Shown: piece by piece, positions 7,692-23,083 of the stretch
Position numbering within the stretch: position 1 is the stretch's first letter
Layout: every line of letters starts with the position of its first letter
DNA from: Planctomycetes bacterium GWF2_41_51
Lineage (GTDB): Bacteria; Planctomycetota; Phycisphaerae; Sedimentisphaerales; UBA12454
Direction: 5' to 3'
Length of the DNA stretch: 43,513 nt
Assembly: GCA_001825665.1 (NCBI GenBank)
Contig: MHXZ01000074.1
Location: 1-43,513 of the forward strand
Program-made: the position numbers and the translations under genes
Notes under the pieces: generated by a model
The model's database searches: none
What the model saw: the letters and a program-made list of their open reading frames with translations, nothing else
What the model was told of the DNA's origin: nothing

Positions 7692-9515
7692 TCAAATTGC
7701 ATAAACATTATGCATGTCGTAATAAATACCTTTTTTATTGAGCAGTTCTTCGTGAGTACCGGTTTCAATTATATTCTTATTCGCGAGTACGATTATCCTG
7801 TCGCATTTTTGAATAGTACTTAAACGGTGCGCGATAATGAAAGCAGTCCTATTCTCAAGCATTTTATCGATGCTCTGCTGGATGAGCTTTTCGGTGACTG
7901 AATCTACCGAGCTTGTCGCCTCATCGAGAATGACAATCGCAGGATTTTTCAGGAAGACACGGGCAATCGCGAGTCTCTGCTTTTGTCCGCCGCTGAGTTT
8001 GACGCCTCTTTCGCCTACGAGGGTATCGAATTTGTCCGGCAATTCCTGAATGGTGTTGTAAATATTTGCCATAGTACAGGCGTTTATCATTTCTTCTTCG
8101 GTTTTGCCGGGGTTTGCAAAGAGCAAATTATCACGGATTGTGCCATAGAACAAAAATGTTTCCTGAAAGACGATGCCGATGTTCTGGCGGAGAGAGGTTT
8201 GCGTGAAATCCCTGATGTCTCTGCCGTCGATTTCGATTGAGCCGGTGCTGGGGTCGTAAAAGCGGGGCAGAAGCGAGAGAAGAGTTGTTTTGCCGCTGCC
8301 TGTTGGACCGACGACGGCGATTTTTTCGCCTGCTATTACATCGAGATTTATGCTGTCGAGAACCGGTGCCCTGCCGTATGAGAATTTTACATTTTTAAAG
8401 CTGACATTGCCTTTGACGGAATCTTTTTCGAGTTTTGCAGCGCCGGGTTTGTCTTTGATATCGGGAACGATTTTAAGGAAATCGACAATTCTCTCAAGGC
8501 CGACCATACCATCCTGGAAAAGATTCATTACATTCATAATGCCGCCGATGGAGCCGTATAAATAATTTGAGAGCATCAGGAAAAGGGTAATTGTGCCGAG
8601 CGTTACTGAGCCGATTTTGTAGAACATAAGAATACCGCCGATGACGGCAATCTGCATTCTGCCCCAATCCATAGTGCCATAGCTGAGCTGATGATTGAAG
8701 CTGAAAACCCGCATAATCTCGTTTTGGACATCATAGAACTGGCGGTTCACGGTGCGGTAAACTTCGCTGGAATGGTCTTCGAGGCTGAACGCTTTTATTT
8801 CTTTTATTCCGCTGATTGTTTCCTGTAATTGCGAGGTTATCTGGGATTGATGGCTGCGCTGTTTGCGGTAAAGCGGTTTCAATTTTGTTCTGATTGCGTA
8901 AAAAGCGTAAGCGAGCACCGGCATCGGAAGCATTGCGATAATCGAAAGAAGCGGTGAAATGAAAAACATTATCACCGGAACCAGAAGCAAATGAATCGAA
9001 ACATAAACGAGATGGAAACTGTTGCGAAGCATAAGGCTGAGATTGTTTATATCGCTTACGGTTTTTGTCAGGATATCGCCGACACGTGCGGAATTGAAAT
9101 ACGCCAGTGACAGTTTGTTGATGTGATCCTGCAATTTTAGTTTGATAGAATAGATTACAAGCTCGACACTGCGCGTGGCCTTGCGATGCATAGCGACTCC
9201 GACGCAGTTTGCCAAAAAAATGAGAACGGCCATAATTGCAATAAAAACGAGCGAGAAGACGGTTTTCTCGAAAGCAGTTGAACCGGCTTTGAGCCAGAAT
9301 ATATTCGCATCATTTGCAATCAGGACGTGGTCGATGTAATACTTTATGCCAATAGCGGGAAGCAGATTAAGCGCAGAGTTGAGGAAGAACAGGAAATAGA
9401 CCGTGCTCAGGGGCTTTTTATAAGGTTTCAGAAAAAGCCAAAAATGCTTCATATATTCAGTTTTTTTGTTTTGACCGGCAGAAAACTGCTCGCCGGTTTC
9501 TTTTACATTTTTCAT
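7692..9515 (-). CDS. ABC exporter half-transporter (MsbA/MdlB-like), membrane domain fused to ATPase
   Basis: A 607-residue type I ABC exporter subunit that probably works as a homodimer in the inner membrane. Residues about 25-340 carry six hydrophobic helices; 370-607 form the nucleotide-binding domain. Walker A is GPTGSGKTT with Lys409, the signature is LSGGQ at 507-511 followed by the Walker B segment IVILDEAT, and the switch His is in FIIAHRLST. The gene overlaps the GH30 gene upstream by 4 bases (ATGA) and abuts the URO-D-like gene downstream, so it is clearly translationally coupled within the xylanase operon. A multidrug/lipid-type exporter inside a xylan operon is unusual; the sugar importer of this locus is encoded separately at 23175-26403. 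Cargo is unknown: glycolipid, peptide or oligosaccharide are possible. Confidence 0.9.
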   Translation of the reverse strand: MKNVKETGEQFSAGQNKKTEYMKHFWLFLKPYKKPLSTVYFLFFLNSALNLLPAIGIKYYIDHVLIANDANIFWLKAGSTAFEKTVFSLVFIAIMAVLIFLANCVGVAMHRKATRSVELVIYSIKLKLQDHINKLSLAYFNSARVGDILTKTVSDINNLSLMLRNSFHLVYVSIHLLLVPVIMFFISPLLSIIAMLPMPVLAYAFYAIRTKLKPLYRKQRSHQSQITSQLQETISGIKEIKAFSLEDHSSEVYRTVNRQFYDVQNEIMRVFSFNHQLSYGTMDWGRMQIAVIGGILMFYKIGSVTLGTITLFLMLSNYLYGSIGGIMNVMNLFQDGMVGLERIVDFLKIVPDIKDKPGAAKLEKDSVKGNVSFKNVKFSYGRAPVLDSINLDVIAGEKIAVVGPTGSGKTTLLSLLPRFYDPSTGSIEIDGRDIRDFTQTSLRQNIGIVFQETFLFYGTIRDNLLFANPGKTEEEMINACTMANIYNTIQELPDKFDTLVGERGVKLSGGQKQRLAIARVFLKNPAIVILDEATSSVDSVTEKLIQQSIDKMLENRTAFIIAHRLSTIQKCDRIIVLANKNIIETGTHEELLNKKGIYYDMHNVYAI

Positions 9516-11311
9516 TGGTTAACCAGCGCAATGGTTGTAATCGAATTCTTCGGCAAAATCAATGGTTTGTTATTGCTGTAATTTTCCGTGTGAACGCAAT
9601 TTTCAGTTTGACTTGTTCTGTAAATTTTACCAGTTTCAAAATTATTAATTTCACAAGCAAGCGAAATATTTATATCTGACGTGTTTATAATTATAACACT
9701 GAGATTATGATTGTTGGGGCTGATGAAAGCGGACATTCGCAAAGCGGGAGAATCTGTAGATGCTTCAATACGCTGCCAGTCTGGGTCGGTGAAGGCAGAG
9801 TAATGTTTCATCGCGTAATAGACGGGGTTGATGGTGAATGTTGTGGGGGTGGTGCTGATAAGGCCTAAAGGAGCTTCCCAGATTATCTGCCAATAGATGA
9901 AAGCAGATGTACTTTCGATGACCATAGAATTGTGTATGAATTGCGCAAGCGACATCGCTGCTTCAAAAGATGTAACATCGCCGCCGCTGCTTTCTTTTGC
10001 AAATTCGGTCTGCATACGCGGTTTATCATTATAATCGGCTGCAAAGCGTGCCATCGGACGAATGAAGCTGTCGGGGACATCCTCGCTGCCATCGCCATAG
10101 AGATGATGAGCATAAGCGTAGATGTGAGATTTGTCTTCTGCGGTCAGGGCGTCTATATATCTGCGAGTTGTGAGAATGTTTTTGCCTTCGGGAGCGAGAA
10201 TTTTCGGGGGATTAGGCAGTTTGGAAATTTTATTATAAAAAGCTCGGAAAGCTTTATCGTAACCGGCATTGTTTTCGTTTTCATTCGGGTCGAAACGGCA
10301 AGTGTCCCAGCTTGTTAAATAATCAGGTTCATTTTGCATACTGATATAATCGATTTTAATGCCGTGCTTTTCGTAATCTGCAAAGCTGTTGAGCCACCAT
10401 TGCGCGAAAGCATCGTATTTGTATTTTCCGTCGGCATCTTTAGCGAGAGTGCCGCCTTTGGTGTTATTATTGCTTTTGAGATATTTCGGCGGCGACCATG
10501 ATGAAACCATAATTTTCAAAGGTTTTGGGGAATATTGATTTGCGACTGTGATAAATTTAACCGCTCTGTCAATGTAGTTGCTATCATAGCCATTATAGTC
10601 ATAAGTATTCCGGATTCTTAAAATATCAAGGCCGAGTTCTTTGAAAAGAACGGTGTAGAAATTTGGTCTGTCTGTAAAACCTGCGAGAGTTCGGTCGTAC
10701 CATGCGCCGGCGGCGCCGAAGCCTTCAATTTTCTGGCGACGAATGTCAGGAGAAATTTTTGCAGAAGCCTGCGGTTTTATCTCGACAGAAATGGCTGCGG
10801 CAGGAGGACCAATAACTTCTACATCATCAACAAAGAAGTTTGTTCCCGGCGGGGGGCCTTCAAAATAAATATCGAGAAGGCTCGGCTCGCCCTGGGCCTG
10901 AAAGGTAAAAGTGCCGGTTAGCTGAACCCACTGGGTATTGTTGGCTTGTGCAGAAACAATATTTGTATATGATACTCCGCTGGCATCGTGCTTTTCGATG
11001 GAAATTGTAACGGGAGCGGCGAGTGTGTTTTCGAGTTTGACCCATGCGGAAATGCTGTAAGTTTTTTCAATTATTACTTTGTCGATGATGGGCTGTTTAA
11101 TTCCATGCCATGTCATAGTTCTGTTTGAAGATTTGCCGCTTGCGGAGCCTGTATGTTTTTGTTCGGATGACTGCGTAAATACTCCGCCGCGGGAAGACCA
11201 GCCGCCTGTTTCTTCAAAGCCGGGATTAACGAGAACATTGATATCGGCAAAGCAGAACGATAGATTAAAAACGCACACAGCACAGACTAAATAAAGATTT
11301 TTTGCGGTCAT
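9512..11311 (-). CDS. Secreted GH30-family xylanase with N-terminal CBM22-like module (copy A)
   Basis: 599 residues. A signal peptide ends at FCFA (about residue 22). Residues about 25-170 form a CBM4/9/22-type beta-sandwich (NPGFEETGGW, TWHGIKQ, VDDVEVIGPP). The GH30-type barrel starts at KIEGFGAAGAWY (about 190) and contains the acid/base Glu328 in SMQNEPDY and the nucleophile Glu436 in MQTEFAK. A short beta-domain ending KNSITTIAL closes the protein. GH30 enzymes of this kind cut glucuronoxylan, arabinoxylan or xylan ends; the subfamily is not certain. AAGGAG precedes ATG 11311 by six bases, and the preceding gene stops one base upstream. It lacks the dockerin-like tail of its paralogue at 15603-17654. 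The three GH30 copies of this operon look like tandem duplicates. Confidence 0.88.
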   Translation of the reverse strand: MTAKNLYLVCAVCVFNLSFCFADINVLVNPGFEETGGWSSRGGVFTQSSEQKHTGSASGKSSNRTMTWHGIKQPIIDKVIIEKTYSISAWVKLENTLAAPVTISIEKHDASGVSYTNIVSAQANNTQWVQLTGTFTFQAQGEPSLLDIYFEGPPPGTNFFVDDVEVIGPPAAAISVEIKPQASAKISPDIRRQKIEGFGAAGAWYDRTLAGFTDRPNFYTVLFKELGLDILRIRNTYDYNGYDSNYIDRAVKFITVANQYSPKPLKIMVSSWSPPKYLKSNNNTKGGTLAKDADGKYKYDAFAQWWLNSFADYEKHGIKIDYISMQNEPDYLTSWDTCRFDPNENENNAGYDKAFRAFYNKISKLPNPPKILAPEGKNILTTRRYIDALTAEDKSHIYAYAHHLYGDGSEDVPDSFIRPMARFAADYNDKPRMQTEFAKESSGGDVTSFEAAMSLAQFIHNSMVIESTSAFIYWQIIWEAPLGLISTTPTTFTINPVYYAMKHYSAFTDPDWQRIEASTDSPALRMSAFISPNNHNLSVIIINTSDINISLACEINNFETGKIYRTSQTENCVHTENYSNNKPLILPKNSITTIALVNQ

Positions 11312-11312
11312 T

Positions 11313-13121
11313 TTATTCTCCTTTTAATAAATTCCCTTTAATCGCGATTGTCGTAATCGAATCTTTGACGACAATCAAAGGTTTATCATTTTTATAATTT
11401 CCCACGAGTTCACAATTTTCGGTTTTGGATGTGCGGTAAATTTCGCCGGCAGAAATCTCGAAAGCAGCAGAAGCAAGCGAAAGCGAAATATCTGTGTCAG
11501 ATGATGTGTTTATAATTACAACGCTGACATTTTTTTTGTCGGGACTTTGAAAAGCGGTTATCCGCAAAGCGGGTGAATCAGTTTGTGCTTCGATTCGCTG
11601 CCAGTTTTGATCTATAAAAGCGGAGAATTGTTTGAACGCATAATAAGTCGGATTGATTCTGTAACCTTCGCTGCCGATTGGTTCGCTTAGAGTAATCAAA
11701 CCGCCGCCGATTTTACCTTTGCGGTAAAGACTCCAATAAGAATACGAGGCGAGATTTTCATACACGAGGCAATTGTGAATGTGACGCGCGGTGAAAACGG
11801 CATCGTTGAAATCGGGATTGCGAGAATATTCGGTCTGAAAGAACGGCTTGCCGTCATATTTTTCGGCGTACTTTTTTAATGAAGCAACGTAAGCTTCGGG
11901 GTGGTCGTATCCGCCTGCGCCATCGCTGTATAAATGATGTGTCCATGCGTAAACGTGATTTGTGTCGATGATAGCGTCAATATACCGGCGTGAATTACCG
12001 AAACCCATCGTTTCGGGCGCGAGAAGTTTAGGTCTTTTATCGCCGAACTCGAAATTCAATTTTTGGTAAACTGTTTCCAATGCAAGATTATAGCTTGCCC
12101 AATTGGCGTCTTCGGCGGGTAAGAATTTACAGGAAGCGTAAGCTGTTTCGATGTCGGGTTCGTTTTGAATGCTGAGATAATCTACTGTTACGCCGCGGGC
12201 GGTGAGGTCTTTGACGCTGTCTATCCACCAATCGGAGAATTCGTCGTACATATATTTGCCGGCGGAATTCTTTTTTAATGTGCCTGCGGTTGTGTGGTCG
12301 GTGCTTTTGAGATAAGCAGGCGGCGACCATGAGGCAACCATCACTTTAATTGGTTTTGAGAGTATTTTATTTGCACCGTTGATAATTTCAACACTATCAT
12401 CAACATAATGTTCATTGATTGCGTGCAGGTTTTGAATTCTGTAAATCTCAAGACATAAATCAGCGAACATCAATTTATACAGTTCATTTTTTTTAGGATG
12501 AGCGACGAGCCAGTTAGGGTCGTAACCGCCGGCGGCACCGAAACCTTCAAACATCTGAAAACGCTGCGAAGCATCAATTTTGCCTGTTGAGTTTGTATCG
12601 AGCGGTTTTGGCGGCGGGGCGGGAGGACCAAAGACATTTACATCATCAATATAGAAATTTACTCCGGCGGCAGGACCTTCGAAATAAACATCCAATGTGC
12701 CAAGCTCGCCTTTATAATTTAGAATAAAATCGCCTGTGAGCTTCGTCCAGTTTTTATTGTTGGCAATGCCTTTAGCGACATTAATATAAGTCGAATCTTC
12801 GCTGTCGGCCTGAGCGATTGTAATCTGAATATTATTGCTGTCTGAATTTTGGAGTTTGACCCAGCCGGATATGCGGTATTTTTTACCAATTTCCATTTTG
12901 CTGAGCAGCGATTGTTTAATTCCCTGCCATGTGTCTATTCGCGCAAATGCTTTGGCGGATTTAGAGCCGGTGTATTTTTCGTTTGCATCAACAGCGATAG
13001 AACATCCACGACCTGACCAGCCGGAAGTTCCATCCTCCAAGCCGGGGTTCGTCAGCAAATTGGTATCCGCAAAACACGGTGCTGCCAGTAAAACTAATAT
13101 GTAAACTTTTCTAATGAACAT
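11313..13121 (-). CDS. Secreted GH30-family xylanase with N-terminal CBM22-like module (copy B)
   Basis: 602 residues with the same architecture as its neighbour: signal peptide to PCFA (about residue 18), CBM22-like domain (NPGLEDGTSGWSGRG, DTWQGIKQ, DDVNVFGPP), then the GH30 barrel from MFEGFGAAGGYD (about 190). The acid/base is Glu321 in SIQNEPDI and the nucleophile Glu431 in FQTEYSRN. After the GFGAA motif it reads GGYDPN where the other two copies have AWYD or GWYE, and the loop before the barrel end differs (RKGKIGGGLITLSEPIG), suggesting altered substrate subsites. Its ribosome site overlaps the end of the GH10 gene, whose stop is 7 bases upstream. There is no dockerin-like tail. Xylan is the likely substrate; the exact linkage or decoration is not deducible. 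Confidence 0.87.
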   Translation of the reverse strand: MFIRKVYILVLLAAPCFADTNLLTNPGLEDGTSGWSGRGCSIAVDANEKYTGSKSAKAFARIDTWQGIKQSLLSKMEIGKKYRISGWVKLQNSDSNNIQITIAQADSEDSTYINVAKGIANNKNWTKLTGDFILNYKGELGTLDVYFEGPAAGVNFYIDDVNVFGPPAPPPKPLDTNSTGKIDASQRFQMFEGFGAAGGYDPNWLVAHPKKNELYKLMFADLCLEIYRIQNLHAINEHYVDDSVEIINGANKILSKPIKVMVASWSPPAYLKSTDHTTAGTLKKNSAGKYMYDEFSDWWIDSVKDLTARGVTVDYLSIQNEPDIETAYASCKFLPAEDANWASYNLALETVYQKLNFEFGDKRPKLLAPETMGFGNSRRYIDAIIDTNHVYAWTHHLYSDGAGGYDHPEAYVASLKKYAEKYDGKPFFQTEYSRNPDFNDAVFTARHIHNCLVYENLASYSYWSLYRKGKIGGGLITLSEPIGSEGYRINPTYYAFKQFSAFIDQNWQRIEAQTDSPALRITAFQSPDKKNVSVVIINTSSDTDISLSLASAAFEISAGEIYRTSKTENCELVGNYKNDKPLIVVKDSITTIAIKGNLLKGE

Positions 13122-13128
13122 CTATCCT

Positions 13129-15582
13129 TTACCAATTCGATGTACAGCCTACTCCCTGCGGGTCATTACAGTTCATCCACTGCTGCGCGAATTCGCCGAA
13201 ATCCTGAAAATCAACAGTACCATCTATCGGTTCAAAATCAGCGCCATTGCAATTATTAATTAACGCACAATCTTCATTGAGCCAGTAATCTGAAATAATA
13301 TGAAGGTCTTTAAAATTAACGTAACAGTCACCGCTTAAATCGGATATTAAAGCAAGACCGCCATTTTGAACGTCTGTGCAATCATCATAAGTTATCAAAG
13401 CAGCTCTTATTACAACTCCTATAATTCCCTGTGAAGAAGACGATGAGAAAGTCGCGTTTGGTGTAATTGCCGTGCCAATACTTAATTTGTGGCCTGCTAC
13501 GCCAGTTGCGTACCAATAACCGCCAAACTGCTGGTCGATGCCTTCAGTGAAACCATTGTTTAATGTGTATGATCCCGCGGCTCCGCCTGTCACAGCGATA
13601 ATAACCATATCTCCCTGATCGTTTAGAAGTGGAACTGTGGAAATTGAGGTACCAGAGGGAATACTGTTTCCGGCAGTGGCACCAATGGGAGAAGCCTGAT
13701 TAACGTTTGTGAAAAACGCACTTGAATATGAATAGCTGCCCCATGTGGAAGTCCAGGTCGGACTAAAATTTGTTGCAATTGCAGAGGCGATGTCAGCTTC
13801 TTTGAGAATGAAAACTGCGGTTTGATAGCCAAATGAAGAGCCTGTGTCAACTTCAAGAACCTTTGTCATCATTTTTCCGCCGTAACTGACCGAAGTAATA
13901 TCTCCGGCGCCCCAGGATAATCCATGCGCTACAAATACGAGAATACGATTTTCGCCAGTTTCTTTTGCGTGATTAAGCCCCGTTATCCATGAACCGAGAA
14001 GTCCTACATTTGCTCCCGGAGACATAGTTCTTGCAGATGCGGGCACTGAAAAATCCGTTTCATTCGGATACAGCGCATTATCGCGAGCCTTAACTCTGAA
14101 AGTATATAATGTACTCGGAGACAGGCCGGTAGCTAAGTATGTCGTGCCGAATTCCCATGTGCTGCTTTTTGTCGGGTCATTCGTACATTCGAATAAATAC
14201 TGACAGGGCATAGATTCGTCTGTCGCAGTTGTCGCCGTCATAGTGATTGAAGATTGACTAACAGCCGCAGGCGGAGAGACGAAAGTCATCGGGTTGGGAG
14301 CGGGTTTGACGTATTCCGGCTCGGGAGCGTACAGGTTTGTTTCAATTTCCAACTGAAGAGTTGTTGTGCCGGGAGCCAATTCAATAACATAAGTTTCATC
14401 CGGCTGACCGGCAGCACTGAGAGTTATTTCATAAATACCGTGGAAGCCTCTGAAGTTTGCATCTCCATTTATGCCGGTAGTATCGGTTGCCTCTGTTGTC
14501 CATTCATCCATAAGTGCCTGATATCTTAGTCCTGCGGCATTTACAGACCAGTCTGAATCGACAAGTCCTTCCCATCGCCATGCAGAAGGACCATAAAAGC
14601 CCCACATAATAATACCTTCAACAGAAGCATGGCTAAAGCATATACGATAAAATTTTTCAAGCTCATCCGCACGCAGATTTTCGTCTGCCTGCGGGACATC
14701 AAATTCTGTAATCCAAATCGGGAGGCCGACAGCGGCTAAAGGCTGAAGTACACTATTATAATAAGTCTGAGGATTGAAACCGCTATTAATATGTCCCTGT
14801 ATGCCGAGAGCGTCAATCGGTGCGCCCTGGCTAATTAAGCCGTTTGCACGGCTCGCATAGGTCCAGCCGTCATAGCTGCCGAAGGAATTGCCTGTGTATT
14901 CATTAAGGAATAATTTGCAATTTGGGTCGACGGTTCGAGCACGCTGATACATGTGAACTCTTCCGCCGTCGCCGAGACGGTCATAGAATCTATAATCTGA
15001 ACCGGATGGCAGCATTTCATTGTCAACGTCCCAATGTAAAAACTTGTTTTTGAAATGATTTACGGCGCTGTCGATGCGTTCATCAACTTCTGTCAATAAT
15101 TCGCTTGATGCGGGATATGCCGCGTAAGGCAAATCCTTTACCCATTGCTGAATATAGGTCAGTTGTTCCCAAAAAAGGGTATGACCTCGCATCGGTATTT
15201 CATTGGTATTGCACCAATTATAAATATAATCACCCTGCGAATAGTTTTCTGAATCCCTTGTATTTTCATTGGAAGCCCATTTGGTTTCGTTTTCGCAAAC
15301 AGCCCAATTAAAATTTTCCAGAATGAAATTTCTGTAATTTGCATAATTAACGAGGTTGGAATATGAAATGCAGGTCCCGAAAGCGAAATGCTGTTTTAGC
15401 TGATTGATCTCAACATCAATGCCTCCGACCGGCTGGCCAAGAGAATCAACTATTGTAATTTCGAGATTCCTTTTACGAATGTTTTCAATTCTTGCATTCG
15501 CATCACTTTTCCAATCCGCATAACAAAAAGATGAAATGAAAATAATAGCAAAAAAACTATTCTTTAATTTTTTAGAAAACAT
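13129..15582 (-). CDS. Secreted multidomain GH10 endo-1,4-beta-xylanase with FnIII, unknown module and dockerin-like tail
   Basis: 817 residues. A signal peptide ends at CYA (about 22). The GH10 catalytic domain (about 30-365) begins with an insert-like strand pair and has the acid/base Glu189 in WDVDNEM and the nucleophile Glu293 in WITEFDVP. Residues 370-415 form the small beta-unit (GFHGIYEITL) often found after GH10 domains; 425-520 is fibronectin type III-like (LSPSTLYTFRVKARD). Residues about 522-727 are an Ala/Gly/Ser-rich beta module (ITSVSYGGKMM; GVVIRAAL) that I cannot assign. The last 70 residues are a two-loop EF-hand/dockerin-like domain (DLSGDCYVNFKDL; ADFEPIDGTVDFQDF) ending in SNW. 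AGGAGG gives a perfect ribosome site 5 nt before ATG 15582. It probably cuts the xylan backbone at the cell surface or in the periplasm. Confidence 0.92.
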   Translation of the reverse strand: MFSKKLKNSFFAIIFISSFCYADWKSDANARIENIRKRNLEITIVDSLGQPVGGIDVEINQLKQHFAFGTCISYSNLVNYANYRNFILENFNWAVCENETKWASNENTRDSENYSQGDYIYNWCNTNEIPMRGHTLFWEQLTYIQQWVKDLPYAAYPASSELLTEVDERIDSAVNHFKNKFLHWDVDNEMLPSGSDYRFYDRLGDGGRVHMYQRARTVDPNCKLFLNEYTGNSFGSYDGWTYASRANGLISQGAPIDALGIQGHINSGFNPQTYYNSVLQPLAAVGLPIWITEFDVPQADENLRADELEKFYRICFSHASVEGIIMWGFYGPSAWRWEGLVDSDWSVNAAGLRYQALMDEWTTEATDTTGINGDANFRGFHGIYEITLSAAGQPDETYVIELAPGTTTLQLEIETNLYAPEPEYVKPAPNPMTFVSPPAAVSQSSITMTATTATDESMPCQYLFECTNDPTKSSTWEFGTTYLATGLSPSTLYTFRVKARDNALYPNETDFSVPASARTMSPGANVGLLGSWITGLNHAKETGENRILVFVAHGLSWGAGDITSVSYGGKMMTKVLEVDTGSSFGYQTAVFILKEADIASAIATNFSPTWTSTWGSYSYSSAFFTNVNQASPIGATAGNSIPSGTSISTVPLLNDQGDMVIIAVTGGAAGSYTLNNGFTEGIDQQFGGYWYATGVAGHKLSIGTAITPNATFSSSSSQGIIGVVIRAALITYDDCTDVQNGGLALISDLSGDCYVNFKDLHIISDYWLNEDCALINNCNGADFEPIDGTVDFQDFGEFAQQWMNCNDPQGVGCTSNW

Positions 15583-15602
15583 TTATCCTCCTATTTTTTT
15601 GA

Positions 15603-17654
15603 TTACCAGTTCTGCATACAATCTGAATCCTCGGGGTCATTGCATTGCATCCATTGAATTGCAAAGTCGCTAAAATCAGAGAAATCGACCATGCCGTCGG
15701 TTGGCTCAAAATCTGCACCATTGCAATTATTAATGGTATCGCAATCACTTCTAAGCCAGTATTCAGAGATGACAGAAAGGTCTTCGTAATCGACCCGGCA
15801 GTCGCCATTTAAATCTGAAAGCAGAGTGTAGCCGAAACTTTGTACTTGTGTGCAATTTTGCGGTATGAGAGAGCCATTAAGTGCAATTGTGGTTATAGAA
15901 TTTTTCGGGAGAAGAACTGAATCTATGTAACTGCCGAGGAGAACGCAATTTTCAGTGGAGCTTGAACGGTAAACGCTGCCGGATGAAACTTCGAAATTAC
16001 CGAAAGAATTGAAAGTCAGAGTAATATCAGAGTCATTGGAAATATTTATCAGTATTATAGATAGCTGATTATTTTCGGGATTTATGAATGAGCTCATCCT
16101 CAATGCAGAGGTGTTACTCGATGCTGCGACACGCTGCCAGTTCGGGTCTGTAAAATATGAAAAATGTTTAAAAGCATAATAAACAGGATTGATCGTATAG
16201 TTAGGAGTTGTAAGGCTTATAAGTCCTGACGGAGAGGCCCAGAATAAATCCCAATAAAGATAAGCGGAAACATTCTCAACGGTTAAACAATTATTCATCA
16301 GCATCGCAAGATTCATCGCGTTTGCCCATGTGTTGACGGGGGAACCTGAAAATTCAGTTTGAAATACAGGCTTGTCGCTGTAGAGATTTTTGAATGTGGT
16401 CATTGCTGAAATAAGCTGGTCGGGATTATCGGCACTGCCATCATAAAGATGATGCGCATAACCGTAAATATTAGATTTGTCCGTTGTATTAAGTGCATTT
16501 AGATAGCTTGCGGTACCGCCTAAACTTGCGCTTTCGGGCGCGAGAAGTTTTGGAGGATTAGGCATTGTATTTAGATTTGCGTAAAGGGCGGCAAAACCCT
16601 GTTTATAGCCTGCACGAGTTGAATTTTCAGTCGGATCCCATAGACAGGTATGCCAATCTGCCGACCATTGCGGTTCATTTTGCATATTTAAATAGTATGT
16701 ATTAACGCCGGCATTCGACCATGCAGTTAAACTGTCGCGCCACCATTGCGCAAATTGAGTATATTTATAATTGCCATTAGCGTCTTTGATTAAAGTACCG
16801 CCATTTTCAAAATCGTTATTGCTTTTCAGATAAGCAGGCGGCCCCCATGATGAATTCATGACTCTGATTGGATGGCCGAGAGAAGTCCGGGCGGCGGCAA
16901 TGATTGTTGCCGAACGTGTAATATATCCATTGTCTATATCATAAGTATTGCGAACGCGATATATATCAAGGCCTAAATCACGGAACATTGTATTATATAG
17001 GTTTGTTCTTATTGTCGATGAATAGTTTAAAACGCTCTGTTCGTACCATCCGCCTGCTGCACCGAAACCTTCTAAAATCTGGTAACGTGTATCTATATTA
17101 ATAGAAGCAGCAGCGTCAAATCCCTGCGATGGGTCGGGGCCGTAAACATTTGCATCATCGACATAGATATCGACGCCTGAATTCGGCCCTTCGAAATAGA
17201 CATATAATTCTGTTAGGGGACCGTTTGCGGTTAAATTGTAATTATTTGAAAGATAAATCCAGCCGGTGTTGTTTGCTGTGCCTGTTGCTACGTTAGCATA
17301 AGTAGTAACGCCATCAACCTTTTTTTGAACGGTTATCTTCACGGTTCCGCTCGATGCGCTTATTCTTAATCTCGCCGAGATTTGATAAGTAGAGCCTATG
17401 ATCATTTTATTCAGCATGTCCTGCTGTATGCCATTCCATGTTGCGGTTCTATTATAAGCTCTGCCGCTTTGTGAGCCGTTGTAAACGGGAGAAGAAACTG
17501 CAGAAATAGAACAGCTTCGGCTTGTCCATCCAGTGGTGCCGCTTTCAAAGCCGGGATTTGTCAGAATGTTAATATTCGCAGCAAAGACATTGGTTATAAA
17601 TAGAAGCGCAAAAGGAATAAATGGTAATTGCGGATATTTAAATTTTATTATCAT
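15603..17654 (-). CDS. Secreted GH30-family xylanase with CBM22-like module and dockerin-like tail (copy C)
   Basis: 683 residues, first gene of the minus-strand operon. A signal peptide ends at NVFA (about 25). The CBM22-like domain follows (NPGFESGTTGWTSRSCS, TWNGIQQ, DDANVYGP), then the GH30 barrel from ILEGFGAAGGWYE. The acid/base is Glu327 in NMQNEPQW and the nucleophile Glu434 in FQTEFSG. Unlike copies A and B it continues after KNSITTIAL into a two-loop calcium-binding dockerin-like domain (about 612-683: DLNGDCRVDYEDL; ADFEPTDGMVDFSDF) that ends in QNW. AGGAG lies 9 nt before ATG 17654. A promoter and a one-mismatch LacI-type operator lie within 90 bases upstream. Probably endo- or exo-acting on decorated xylan; subfamily uncertain. 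Confidence 0.9.
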   Translation of the reverse strand: MIIKFKYPQLPFIPFALLFITNVFAANINILTNPGFESGTTGWTSRSCSISAVSSPVYNGSQSGRAYNRTATWNGIQQDMLNKMIIGSTYQISARLRISASSGTVKITVQKKVDGVTTYANVATGTANNTGWIYLSNNYNLTANGPLTELYVYFEGPNSGVDIYVDDANVYGPDPSQGFDAAASINIDTRYQILEGFGAAGGWYEQSVLNYSSTIRTNLYNTMFRDLGLDIYRVRNTYDIDNGYITRSATIIAAARTSLGHPIRVMNSSWGPPAYLKSNNDFENGGTLIKDANGNYKYTQFAQWWRDSLTAWSNAGVNTYYLNMQNEPQWSADWHTCLWDPTENSTRAGYKQGFAALYANLNTMPNPPKLLAPESASLGGTASYLNALNTTDKSNIYGYAHHLYDGSADNPDQLISAMTTFKNLYSDKPVFQTEFSGSPVNTWANAMNLAMLMNNCLTVENVSAYLYWDLFWASPSGLISLTTPNYTINPVYYAFKHFSYFTDPNWQRVAASSNTSALRMSSFINPENNQLSIILINISNDSDITLTFNSFGNFEVSSGSVYRSSSTENCVLLGSYIDSVLLPKNSITTIALNGSLIPQNCTQVQSFGYTLLSDLNGDCRVDYEDLSVISEYWLRSDCDTINNCNGADFEPTDGMVDFSDFSDFAIQWMQCNDPEDSDCMQNW

Positions 17655-17976: not shown

Positions 17977-19002
17977 GTGGCTGAGAATAACACAGTACCA
18001 ACGGTGAAAGAGGTTGCAGCGCACTGCGGCGTAAGTGAGGCTACTGTAAGCAGGGTCTTAAACGGCAATTATAAGAACGGCTTTTCAGTAAGGCAGGAGT
18101 TGCGACAGAAAATAACCCAGGTGGCGGATGCCTTGGGTTACAGACCTAATCTTGCGGCAAAGAATTTAGTTCGACGTCAAACCAAAATGATAGCAATACT
18201 GGGCTGCGACACAGTGCTTGGCTGGCCCGGGAACATTTACCAAACAATTATAAATGCCAGTGTTCGTGCGCTGCATATCAGAGGGTACGATGTATGCATT
18301 ACAATTCCAAATCTTGAAAAAAGTAATACAGAGCTGCCATCGTGGAGAGTAGATGGCGCTATAGTAATGCAGGAATGTTCCGAGCAAACAGTAGAAGCGA
18401 TGGAAAAATCAGGATTGCCGTACGTAGTAATTAATGGTGTTGCCGGGCCAAACGGCTCGATAATAATTCCTGATGATATCGATGCAACAAGACGAGCGTT
18501 AAATCATTTGATAGATATGGGCCATCGCAGGATCGCATACGCAGGACCGACATCCAGCCATAAAGAGCATCGCAGTATTGTTGACCGCCATGATACGTAT
18601 GTGTCCGAACTTACCGAGCACGGGCTTGAGCCGATAAGCGGTCATAATACAGTATTCCGTTCAGCACCGGCGTTTTTAGCTTCAACAGTGTTAAAAAATC
18701 AGGCAACAGCTATTCTTGCGTATGACCATGTGGAAGCGATAAAAATCATTCACGCGGCACATACGCTGGATATTCAGATTCCCAAACAGGTAAGCCTGGT
18801 GTGTTTCAACGATGAATATTTATGTGATGTTGTAACGCCGGCGCTGACTACGATTGGAGTTCCGCTTCGAAGAATGGGCAGAATCGCAGCACAGACATTG
18901 CTAAGCCAAATTGACTCGCCTCAAAGTTATTCTCCGCAATGTATAAGACTATCACAGGACTTGATAATACGGGCATCGACAGCGCAACCATTTAAGAGGT
19001 AA
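17977..19002 (+). CDS. LacI-family transcriptional regulator, probable xylan-regulon repressor
   Basis: A 341-residue regulator. Residues 8-30 form the helix-turn-helix (TVKEVAAHCGVSEATVSRVLNG) and about 45-62 the hinge (YRPNLAAKNLVRRQT), with a Leu available to insert into the central CG step of the operator. Residues 65-335 are the periplasmic-binding-protein-like effector domain (MIAILGCD, GHRRIAYAGP, LVCFNDE). The start is GTG 17977, preceded by GGAG at a 5-nt spacing. The gene sits between two classes of xylanolytic genes, and the same palindrome lies before itself, the divergent operon and the distant PEP-CTERM gene. The inducer is likely a xylo-oligosaccharide or xylose, by inference from context only. 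A degenerate half-site near 22181 was not counted. Confidence 0.9.
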   Translation: MAENNTVPTVKEVAAHCGVSEATVSRVLNGNYKNGFSVRQELRQKITQVADALGYRPNLAAKNLVRRQTKMIAILGCDTVLGWPGNIYQTIINASVRALHIRGYDVCITIPNLEKSNTELPSWRVDGAIVMQECSEQTVEAMEKSGLPYVVINGVAGPNGSIIIPDDIDATRRALNHLIDMGHRRIAYAGPTSSHKEHRSIVDRHDTYVSELTEHGLEPISGHNTVFRSAPAFLASTVLKNQATAILAYDHVEAIKIIHAAHTLDIQIPKQVSLVCFNDEYLCDVVTPALTTIGVPLRRMGRIAAQTLLSQIDSPQSYSPQCIRLSQDLIIRASTAQPFKR

Positions 19003-19083: not shown

Positions 19084-20304
19084 ATGAAAAAGAAATTGCT
19101 AATTGTTATTTTATTATGTTTAGGTATCGGCACAGCCTATGCTGATGAGGTGATAAATATTGACCTCAACAATTATGGGAATGCTACGCCATATACAGGA
19201 ACCGCTGTTGTTGATGATGGCATCAATCGGTGGAATGTTTATTATGGAAGCTGGGGGCTGCCGATGGGTTCGCCTCGCAGTGCTAATCTGGCGGGTTCTA
19301 CTGAACCATGTCAGCCGAGTACTTATGCGGCACAGGTTTGGATTGGCGATCCCGGTGTTGACCATAATTATGTTACCGGAGCCGGAGACGGATTGATGGA
19401 TGACGGATTTATTAATAATCCAGCGATTGCAGGAGATCCAAATATACGGTTATGGGGCCGAGATGCTTACGGCGGAACATTTGATGTCTATGTTTATGGC
19501 AGTGAGACAGGAAGTTTCACGTTGACAAGAGGCGGTGTTGTAATCGGTACGAAAACTGTAACAGGCGGAATAACTGCCGGTCAGTTTGTCGAAGGCGGAA
19601 ATTATGTTGTATTTCCGGCTGTTAATATTTCGAATGATCCAGATTTTCTACTTATTAAATATTCAAACATTATAAACGGTATTCAGCTTGTAAAACAAAA
19701 AGACCCAATCGCATTACAGAACGGAACTGAATTCGGATTTGCAGACTACGATGTCGCATTCGAGACAAATGGAAGAGGCGAAGATGATCAGCCATTCGGT
19801 CCTGATCTTATCGGGCCAGACGACTGGAGCCCTTACGGGTACATCAGTTACCTGGATAGTGGCGAATATATGGAATATGATTTCACAATGGATGAATTAA
19901 ATGAAGGTGAATACAATGTTTATGTTATAGTTGATGTTCTGGAATATGACGCAAACAACATGGATTTGTATATAAACGATTTGTTCCTTGGTACAGCAAA
20001 AGCTCCTTATTCAGGCGGATTAGAACTGGCGCAAACGGCACCACTTACAGTAAATATTTTTGGCGGTTCTGATGTTCAAACTTTCAAATGGGAAATGTCT
20101 GCTCTTTATTATCATAATGCTGCATATTTCCGATTCGAACGAATTGGGCCAATTAATATGCCGGATTGTGATGCAGTTTACAGATATGGATTTGAATATG
20201 CGGGTGATTTTAACAGGGATTGCAAGATTGATTTTAAAGACCTCGATATGATGACAGAACAGTGGCTTAGCTGCATAGACCCTAATGAAAATAATTGTCC
20301 GTAA
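19084..20304 (+). CDS. Secreted protein with CBM6/35-like region and dockerin-like tail
   Basis: 406 residues. ATG 19084 is used because a perfect AGGAGGT lies 6 nt upstream (19071-19077); an in-frame GTG at 19039 would put extra residues before the signal peptide. The signal peptide (KKKLLIVILLCLGIGTAYA) precedes a beta-rich region with no sure family (INIDLNNYGNATPYTGTAVV). Residues about 220-360 resemble CBM6/CBM35-type domains (EFGFADYDVAFETNG, GYISYLDSGEYMEYDF, FKWEMSALYYHNAAYFRFERI). The C-terminus has one EF-hand/dockerin-like loop, DFNRDCKIDFKDLDMMTEQW. No catalytic motif is visible. Position directly after the LacI-family gene and before an ABC sugar importer suggests a non-catalytic xylan-binding or scaffolding protein. 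Confidence 0.75.
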   Translation: MKKKLLIVILLCLGIGTAYADEVINIDLNNYGNATPYTGTAVVDDGINRWNVYYGSWGLPMGSPRSANLAGSTEPCQPSTYAAQVWIGDPGVDHNYVTGAGDGLMDDGFINNPAIAGDPNIRLWGRDAYGGTFDVYVYGSETGSFTLTRGGVVIGTKTVTGGITAGQFVEGGNYVVFPAVNISNDPDFLLIKYSNIINGIQLVKQKDPIALQNGTEFGFADYDVAFETNGRGEDDQPFGPDLIGPDDWSPYGYISYLDSGEYMEYDFTMDELNEGEYNVYVIVDVLEYDANNMDLYINDLFLGTAKAPYSGGLELAQTAPLTVNIFGGSDVQTFKWEMSALYYHNAAYFRFERIGPINMPDCDAVYRYGFEYAGDFNRDCKIDFKDLDMMTEQWLSCIDPNENNCP

Positions 20305-20365: not shown

Positions 20366-22111
20366 ATGAAATATAAAATTAAAATGTTATTGATGACTTT
20401 GGTTCTTTTAGGCCTTACCCATGCCGTCTTAGGGGCCGCTGGGGAAAGTGTGGTAAAAACAATGTATATCGATGGAGTGCAGGTTGCACAGGCAACAGTC
20501 GATGGAAATGGTTTGACCTGGCCCAGTGATTATATAGTAATTGGTGCTGAGGGAAACCGAGGCTATATGTATAACGAGTACTTAGGCAAAATAGATGATT
20601 TTGCGATTTATGGTGGAGTTATGCCGGAAAGCCGAGTTACGGCACATTATAATGCAAGAACCAGTTACAGCGGCTATTCATCAGCGGTTCAGGCGGATGT
20701 TCCAAAACTCTGGCTGAAATTTGATGACAGCAGCAAAGCAAATAATGCTACTGCGGTAAACTCTGGAACTGTAACTGCAAAGAATGGAACATACATAGTA
20801 ACAGGTTCAGGTAGTTTCGCAACTGTAGCAGGTTTTGTGACTGGCAGTAATGCAGTTGAATTTGTCGGCCCTGTTTCGGCAGATGGCCCCGGAAGTTGTA
20901 TTGATATCTTTGATGATGCAGGAGATTTTGGTTCTTTGCTTGACGGCGATGTGTCAATTGAGTTGTGGGTAAATTATACACATTCCCAAGATTATCCAAG
21001 ATTTTTCCAGCATAATGGTAATTGGGAAGCATTGGGCGGTTATGGCGTTACTGTTAATGATTCGAATCAGTTAATAATGCTGGGCGGCAATGTGAACAAT
21101 TACGCATCACTTCCGACAGATATTAATAATGGAAGCTGGCATCACATTGTTGTTACATACGATTCAACTTATGTAGAGCCGGTACTGCCCGAAACCGGTG
21201 TGTATGCTGATGAAATAGTCTCAGATAACCCAGTCGTTTGGCTGCGTTTTGAGAGCGAAGACCCCATTGATTCAGCAGCTAATGGCGCAAATCACTGGGT
21301 AGGTTACGGTTCTGCGGCGAGTATAGTAAGCAGAGTCGGCGGTGTAGGTAACTCTGTTCTTTTAAATGGAACAAGTGGCGCCGGCGTATACGGTGTCGCG
21401 ATTACAAACAATCCGAACTCTCCTCCTTTGGTTGGAGGAGGATATGCGGTTTATGGCGATCAGTATGCTTTCGCCCCCGGCGATATAACCTTTGAAATGT
21501 GGTACAAAACTCTTCCGCCGGGTCAACCGCAGCCAGGCAATTATGCACCGTTTTTCCAGCAGCACGGTTCATATACACACGAACCATGTGCTCCAGCCGT
21601 TACCAATTCAGATGGGACAATCCGTGTTTTCGGCGGAGCCGGAGCCGGCTATACGGGTGTAAATTCTAAGTTTGACGGCCAGTGGCACCATCTGGTAGTT
21701 ACTTATGATGAACAATATTTAGGCGATCCGGACGGGATGTTTGTGAAAGTATATTTGGATGGTGTCTGGAAAGACGATACCAATTTCACTGCTGCCAGAT
21801 CTATCCTCGGCCCTGAATTATCTCACCTTCTCATCGGTGCCCAGAATGACATTGGAAATACTTATAATGTATTTGCGGGATATATAGATGAGTTTGCAAT
21901 TTATGATGGACTGCTGAGTCCTGAACGCATTTTAGCTCACTACGTAGCATGGCAGCCGCAGAGTTGTGAAGACCTCGTAGAAAGAGGCTATGCAAGTCCT
22001 ATGGATTTCAATGAGGATTGTAAGGTAAACTTCGCAGATTTTGCAGAATTCGCAGTCAATTGGATGATGTGTAATGATCCTGAAGATTTGAATTGTACAC
22101 CGAACTGGTGA
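20366..22111 (+). CDS. Secreted LamG-domain protein with permuted LamG and dockerin-like tail
   Basis: 581 residues. A signal peptide ends near AVLGA (about 24). Residues 27-98 correspond to the C-terminal half of a LamG/concanavalin-type lectin domain (MYIDGVQV, IVIGAEGN, YLGKIDDFAIYGG), and 112-266 to the N-terminal half of one (LWLKFDD, SIELWVN, WHHIVVTYD at 258). Residues about 287-528 form one complete LamG domain (VVWLRFE, ITFEMWYK, WHHLVVTYD at 440, YIDEFAIYDG). The two halves at the start are therefore in reverse order, as in a circular permutation. The last 37 residues are one dockerin-like loop (DFNEDCKVNFADF) ending in TPNW. AAGGAGAAGG precedes ATG 20366. No catalytic residues are recognised; carbohydrate binding is inferred. 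Confidence 0.78.
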   Translation: MKYKIKMLLMTLVLLGLTHAVLGAAGESVVKTMYIDGVQVAQATVDGNGLTWPSDYIVIGAEGNRGYMYNEYLGKIDDFAIYGGVMPESRVTAHYNARTSYSGYSSAVQADVPKLWLKFDDSSKANNATAVNSGTVTAKNGTYIVTGSGSFATVAGFVTGSNAVEFVGPVSADGPGSCIDIFDDAGDFGSLLDGDVSIELWVNYTHSQDYPRFFQHNGNWEALGGYGVTVNDSNQLIMLGGNVNNYASLPTDINNGSWHHIVVTYDSTYVEPVLPETGVYADEIVSDNPVVWLRFESEDPIDSAANGANHWVGYGSAASIVSRVGGVGNSVLLNGTSGAGVYGVAITNNPNSPPLVGGGYAVYGDQYAFAPGDITFEMWYKTLPPGQPQPGNYAPFFQQHGSYTHEPCAPAVTNSDGTIRVFGGAGAGYTGVNSKFDGQWHHLVVTYDEQYLGDPDGMFVKVYLDGVWKDDTNFTAARSILGPELSHLLIGAQNDIGNTYNVFAGYIDEFAIYDGLLSPERILAHYVAWQPQSCEDLVERGYASPMDFNEDCKVNFADFAEFAVNWMMCNDPEDLNCTPNW

Positions 22112-22154: not shown

Positions 22155-22246
22155 TGTATTGCGGGTTTAATGCCAGAGCAAGTAAACTCGATTATGTAAT
22201 GCGTATAGAAAACGGCAGAAGTTAATTTTATTCTCGGAGTATAGTG

Positions 22247-23083
22247 ATGAGAAAATTAAAAGGTTTTACATTAGTCGAATTGTTAGTTGTGATTTCAATT
22301 ATTGCAATGCTTCTTGCGATATTGATACCGAGTCTGCAAAAAGCAAGGCAAGTTGCACAGAGAATAATTTGTTCAAATCATCTAAAAAGTTTGACTTTAG
22401 CTAATGCAGCATATGCAACTCAAAACGATGGCCGGTATGTTCCTGTCAGATATGATGATGATCCTTATGATCAGGCATGGGTAGCCAACCAGGCATTCAG
22501 GAAATTGCTTGAATGGGACAAATATTTGAAACCGGATGACCTTGTCAAGAATAGAGACGGTACTACTGAAGTATCATATTATGATTTGCCTGATGCGTTT
22601 CTTTGCCCAGCCGATGTGATAAGCAGGTACACAAAGAACAGATACTATTTTGACAATGCCAATATATTGCTCAGCTATGGGTATAATTATACAGAATGGT
22701 CGATATTAGGGCAATGGGATCCATGGGCTGGTTTTCCTGCGGATGCCGGTCATAAAGCGGCAAACATCAAACAACCAGGAACCAAGTTAGCTTTTACTGA
22801 TTCTGTAGATTGGTGGGTATCCTGGGGCGGAGCCGATTATTTAAATGGCTGGGATAAACTCGGCCAGACTACTGTTGCGAAATATAAGGCTCTAAGTCCT
22901 GCGATTCACGGTCCTGTTATTTATCGTCACAATGAAGGCGCTGTAATTGCTTTCTATGATGGTCATTGCAAATATATGAGAAAACAGGAAGTATTTATCA
23001 AAGCAGATCGTGATGCTAAACCCCGAAAACCCGGAATGTGGGTATCTGATCCGGCGTTGTATTTGAAAAATAGAGAACCGTAA
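22247..23083 (+). CDS. Type II pseudopilin-like protein with H-X9-DG motif
   Basis: 278 residues with a prepilin-type N-terminus: a short basic leader, [29 protein letters not shown], the Glu at +5 and a long hydrophobic helix. The leader peptidase would cut between Gly and Phe. The C-terminal domain holds [14 protein letters not shown], in which His228 is followed by nine residues and then Asp-Gly (238-239), the H-X9-DG processing-associated motif common in planctomycete pseudopilin families. ATG 22247 is chosen over GTG 22244 because GGAG lies 7 nt upstream of it. It is encoded between surface glycan-binding proteins and an ABC importer, suggesting a surface or periplasmic fibre involved in substrate capture or enzyme export. 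That role is inference; the fold assignment is firm. Confidence 0.85.

Follow-up and report, generated by a model that had tools for sequence, protein, structure and literature searches.

We consider residues 28-268 of the protein encoded at 20366-22111 as very probably a single LamG_3 domain (a concanavalin A-like jelly-roll), whose two halves are encoded in circularly permuted order and are predicted to close in cis. The gene lies in a stretch of 43,513 nt from Planctomycetes bacterium GWF2_41_51 (contig MHXZ01000074.1), which as a whole is called here the window; the features considered are reported in Table 1. In the permuted domain, a short linker would connect what are the N and C termini in a normal LamG, and the new ends would lie in a hairpin loop, between the strands WHHIVVTYD and KTMYIDG. 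Precisely, after removal of the signal peptide (in the relatives the likely cut, judged by eye, is between ASA and D, followed by 2-3 residues and then the first strand), the chain would begin at the KTMYIDG strand and pass from the C-half over the linker into the N-half. The latter would close the jelly-roll, and the chain would exit from the opened hairpin into the following LamG domain (LamG2, whose halves are called here N2 and C2).

Table 1. Coordinates, in the window, of the gene with the permuted LamG domain, of its parts and of the adjacent genes
Feature	Coordinates	Strand	Remarks
ORF with C-N-N-C order of LamG halves	20366-22111	+	581 residues, secreted
Signal peptide, ~residues 1-24	20366..20437	+	judged by eye
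C1, LamG_3 C-terminal half, residues 28-98, first in order	20447..20659	+	PF13385 94-150; half-HMM 128 bits
Linker of ~9 residues, joining the would-be natural C and N termini of the LamG	20660..20686	+	between half-HMM matches
N1, LamG_3 N-terminal half, residues 108-268, second in order	20687..21169	+	PF13385 13-91; half-HMM 242 bits
LamG2, complete normal-order LamG_3, residues 285-529	21218..21952	+	PF13385 6-150, 58.7 bits; VIA-align Z <=16.0 vs sialidase/arabinanase sugar-binding domains
Dockerin-like C-terminal tail, residues 533-581	21962..22108	+	common to window xylanases and >20 other genome places
LacI-type regulator, first cassette gene	17977..19002	+	conserved
406-aa upstream partner, secreted-looking, without Pfam/NCBIfam family	19084..20304	+	directly upstream in all three relatives
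Pseudopilin-like gene, N-methylation motif, DUF1559-like	22244..23083	+	conserved downstream

Order of the two halves in the sequence

The PF13385 (Laminin_G_3) profile has 151 positions and a curated cut-off of 27.6 bits. On the permuted region, residues ~32-91 corresponded to profile positions 94-150 and residues ~190-268 to positions 13-91, that is, out of the normal N to C order. The two pieces were complementary, the profile being covered once with a break at 91/94. In native order they scored 60.5 bits, above the cut-off; the scores of LamG2 and of a normal LamG encoded next to the permuted gene in the related genome G041 were 58.7 and 63.3 bits, respectively. When C1 and N1 were rejoined in the normal order, we obtained a single match to positions 13-150 with 74.6 bits, a value higher than both the cut-off and the score of LamG2. 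Both halves are thus like the family, from which the region differs in the order in which the profile is run through.

We also ran the profile on the whole genome (4.8 Mb), and 92 matches were obtained, including, in the gene under study, 20456-20638 (positions 93-150), 20933-21169 (13-91) and then a full match at 21443-21931 (6-150). The permuted region was, as judged by eye, the only C-then-N pair among these 92 matches. Such a number of matches represents a large LamG expansion.

The alignment of C1 (28-98) with the C-half of LamG2 had a score of 108 (best of 2000 shuffles, 51), and that of N1 (108-266) with the N-half a score of 125 (best of 2000 shuffles, 77). Both mismatched pairings, C1 with N2 and N1 with C2, scored 23, a value reached by 1878 and 1711 of the 2000 shuffles, respectively. 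An earlier note, made from the sequence by a model, had placed two swapped halves directly after the signal peptide, and this description holds, since the matching halves align far above the shuffles and PF13385 agrees without any use of LamG2. The motifs quoted there were all found in place: DDFAIYGG at residues 77-84 and DEFAIYDG at 508-515, AHY at 92-94 and 524-526, and WHH[IL]VVTYD as WHHIVVTYD at 258-266 and WHHLVVTYD at 440-448. As for the bounds it gave (27-98 and 112-266), the halves are real and their starts were corrected to ~28 for the C-half and ~108 for the N-half. In solved relatives the pieces are in the opposite order by sequence, e.g. in 4qvs_A, in which the N-half is at 16-143 and the C-half at 148-220.

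Conservation of the order in related genomes

Among 148 genomes searched (that of the window included), full-length homologues were found, besides the window protein, in G077, G041 and G045, with identities of 41%, 44% and 41%, respectively, in the multiple alignment. These genomes represent two other families of the same taxonomic order, for three families in all. The C-N-N-C order, with the same junctions, was present in 4/4 genomes. Identity between the window protein and the three relatives was 39-55% for C1, 40-49% for N1, 46-49% for C2 and 41-46% for N2; by this measure C1 and N1 are conserved to much the same degree as C2 and N2, and no trace of decay is visible in them when compared with LamG2.

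The gene is part of a cassette (LacI regulator, 406-aa protein, permuted LamG protein, pseudopilin) which is kept in all four genomes. The identities to the window proteins were 60-64% for the regulator, 40-43% for the 406-aa protein, 38-41% for the LamG protein and 44-46% for the pseudopilin.

A 252-position profile built on the permuted region matched 12 of 397 genomes of the class at E <= 1e-12. The match extended over the whole length in four of them, i.e. the window genome, G077, G041 and G045, and was limited to the N-half part in the other eight, in one case starting from position 49. In the phylum, 5 of 392 genomes were matched, at full length in the window genome only; this sample differs from that of the class, and G077, G041 and G045 have no rows in it. 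In both searches the best few candidates per genome were scored, and a strongly diverged permuted LamG could escape them.

The search for related loci returned none with the single protein as a query and 39 with the protein alignment as a query. Permuted order was found only in L040-L042, whose contigs are of equal length to those of G077, G045 and G041; we therefore counted them as the genes of these genomes and not as extra evidence. Matches to the halves were present in 112 reading frames of 98 loci (fetched by similarity, hence not a random sample), with order NC in 66 frames, CNNC in 17 and other orders in fewer; a C-half only was seen in 7 frames and an N-half only in 4. Of the 17 CNNC rows, 16 were the four genes again, in overlapping copies, and the last was L052:5376-8744. 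A CNCNC order was seen once, in L010, in a frame truncated by the beginning of the locus. We rejected L052:5376-8744 as a permuted candidate, since its pieces are hundreds of residues apart, and read it as normal domains with missed halves.

Judged by sequence, then, the region has the marks of a natural circular permutation, namely homologous segments, swapped order, single coverage and inherited order.

Structure prediction and alternative readings

AlphaFold2 (AF2) was run on residues 27-273, with an alignment of 20 rows, 16 of which were half-fragments of normal-order LamGs. In the best model (pLDDT 84.9, pTM 0.88) the region formed one compact unit; the remaining four models had pLDDT values of 71.7, 71.7, 71.2 and 67.5, hence only one of five was confident. 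The earlier note had proposed such a prediction as a check: the best of the five models gives one compact domain rather than two unfolded halves, the others being weaker, and it is on this basis that both halves are predicted to close into one fold. A model of the full-length protein, from an alignment of 4 rows, was poor (pLDDT 54.3, pTM 0.42).

The permuted model, in its own numbering, has strands at 3-9, 12-19, 30-33 and 48-57, a helix at 62-73 and later strands at 170-178, 186-190, 201-206, 209-213, 219-222 and 232-240. For LamG2, the elements of the poor full-length model are at 374-382, 395-400, 411-415, 418-423, 427-433, 440-448, 458-464, 467-474, 487-490 and 505-514, with a helix at 519-529. 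The first list is the second one, rotated. In LamG2 numbering, the hairpin that is cut open is that of strands 440-448 and 458-464, in general form the loop between WHH[IL]VVT[YF] and xYxDG. The new ends are thus in a loop, with the break between model strands 232-240 and 3-9, and the old ends are joined by the linker of ~9 residues.

LamG2 aligned over its whole length with sialidase, arabinanase and pentraxin domains (Z <=16.0, rmsd 3.2, 171 aligned), whereas the permuted domain, in sequential aligners, aligned in most rows over model residues ~62-246 only (Z <=8.9, rmsd 3.2, 145 aligned), as a rotation predicts. Among the VIA rows listed for the permuted domain, the best were jelly-roll domains of clostridial neurotoxins and GH16 enzymes, which we took as an indication of the common fold only. 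Foldseek gave no match to the permuted domain at E <= 0.001.

The same region could be read as two orphan half-domains, i.e. the remnants of different truncated LamGs in a once longer tandem, without mutual closure. The C-N junction (AHYNA ... PxLYLRF) resembles an ordinary tandem junction, as expected from such a start, and LamG domains are abundant in the genome, but across three families the two halves have stayed 39-55% identical and show no decay next to LamG2, they are complementary pieces that score as one domain once joined, and the best AF2 model packs them as one unit. We consider this reading very unlikely. There is also little chance of a domain swap between molecules, in which a C-half would pair with the N-half of a neighbouring chain and dimers or fibres would form. 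Such a swapping would give the same conservation, but in the AF2 prediction a single chain closes on itself, with a high pTM. Moreover, the natural termini of LamG folds are close together, hence ~9 residues can link them without strain, which counts against completion between chains too.

An assembly or sequencing artefact fusing two genes, which the earlier note had named as a refutation, was rejected as next to impossible: the gene is cut by a contig end in G005, a relative of the same genus, which is a sign of a region hard to assemble, but three independent genomes of other families have the same order, junctions and neighbours. An order inherited in three relatives inside a conserved cassette fits neither an assembly error nor decay.

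Nearest normal LamG and origin of the permuted domain

Relatives with the normal order, for which the earlier note proposed a search, do exist; they are numerous, and one of them (L012:3273-4190) is the neighbour of the permuted gene in G041. In the G041 cassette this extra gene follows the permuted LamG gene directly and precedes the pseudopilin gene. It encodes a single LamG in N-C order with a different, PEP-CTERM-like C-terminal end, and it is absent from the other three cassettes. Among those compared, it was the closest normal-order relative of both C1 and N1: the alignment scores to it were 137 for C1 vs 111.5 for C2, and 230.5 for N1 vs 152.5 for N2.

In a tree of the joined halves, LamG2 and the single-LamG relatives formed a clade (support 100/99), and opposite to it the permuted domains grouped, weakly (69/91), with the normal LamG of G041. 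The best tree did not have the four permuted domains as a clade of their own; when they were forced together the tree was 0.86 log-likelihood units worse, a difference too small to reject this grouping (p-AU 0.437). Trees built from single halves were poorly resolved. These results point, without proof, to one origin of the permuted domains, from a LamG belonging to this local subfamily.

The most likely route, we infer, is that a LamG was duplicated in tandem and the outer halves were then lost, permutation by duplication being described in PMC3320104. In a tandem of two LamGs, the N-half of the first and the C-half of the second would be lost, and the C-N order would be left. The resemblance of the C1-N1 linker to an ordinary LamG-LamG junction fits an origin from a LamG tandem. 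No duplication intermediates were recognised in the overview of the 98 loci. The alternative route is fission and fusion; no free halves were recognised in that same overview, in which the single-half frames were counted as a group.

Comparison with known systems

Circular permutation, concanavalin-type folds included, is textbook knowledge, and the surprise for a specialist is therefore modest: the permuted LamG_3 is a rare further instance (4/397 class genomes) of the well-known concanavalin-type permutation. In a survey (PMC2213659, Table 3), 22.7 to 34.0% of the alignments within the concanavalin-type fold were non-sequential. As with favin and concanavalin A (PMC3320104), the circular permutation is within a concanavalin-type jelly-roll. 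Concanavalin A, however, is permuted after translation, whereas the LamG is permuted in the gene itself. The 1,3-1,4-beta-glucanase of Fibrobacter succinogenes (1mve, family GH16) is likewise a natural jelly-roll permutation in a bacterial polysaccharide-degrading protein; it is, however, an enzyme and not a LamG module, and its Foldseek match to the permuted domain was weak (E 0.40). The PDB title of 1mve refers to a natural circularly-permutated jellyroll protein, and the reference title is also found in PMC2213659.

Domain 4 of AbnA (5hon), a sugar-binding domain of a Geobacillus GH43 arabinanase, had a sequence match to the C-half with E 3.9e-6 (chain residues 144-206, profile positions 4-69), and AbnA chains matched LamG2 with Z 15.3-15.9. 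It differs from the permuted domain in having the normal order, with the C-half at the chain end.

No report of a permuted LamG_3 domain was found in the literature searched, which included PMC11266412 and left most subscription journals outside its coverage. The LamG mention found in PMC12051499 refers to fold classification, not to permutation. LamG_3 is very common, and a rotated copy would be annotated by profile searches as two fragments. Permuted and unpermuted members of one local subfamily occur together in a single protein (and, in G041, in neighbouring genes too), which is a clean natural experiment: with the copies side by side, the influence of chain order on folding and on ligand geometry is directly comparable.

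Gene context and probable function

In the window, the cassette is surrounded by xylan enzymes, namely two GH10, three GH30 with CBM_4_9, one GH43, one GH39 and one GH2 with CBM60, together with an ABC sugar importer. Within the window, the C-terminal tail of the LamG protein recurs in one GH30 and one GH10 protein, being encoded also at the 3′ ends of 13129-15582 and 15603-17654; hence these proteins are probably held at the same place. The tail has conserved cysteines and recurs at >20 other places in the genome. A cognate cohesin, as expected for a cellulosome-type dockerin, was not found (0 matches to PF00963 at E <= 0.01 in the window genome, which is 95.6% complete).

From this context and from the fold, the permuted LamG protein is probably a secreted glycan-binding accessory (of xylan or arabinoxylan) of a LacI-regulated xylan locus. 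The shifted exit point would put the two LamG sites at an angle unlike that of a normal tandem. One could go further and suppose a permuted LamG subfamily kept by selection and arisen in a LamG-rich lineage, in which the moved ends fix two sugar sites opposed to each other (C1-N1/N2-C2 via the opened hairpin), beyond the reach of a normal tandem, as a two-site xylan clamp; we hold this to be unlikely.

Two further features of the locus were observed. On the minus strand, at 9512-17654, three similar GH30 genes with CBM_4_9 and a GH10 gene lie in a row, apparently by local duplication of xylanase genes. In all four genomes a pilin-like gene is part of the sugar-use cassette, and in the window it travels with LamG and xylanase genes.
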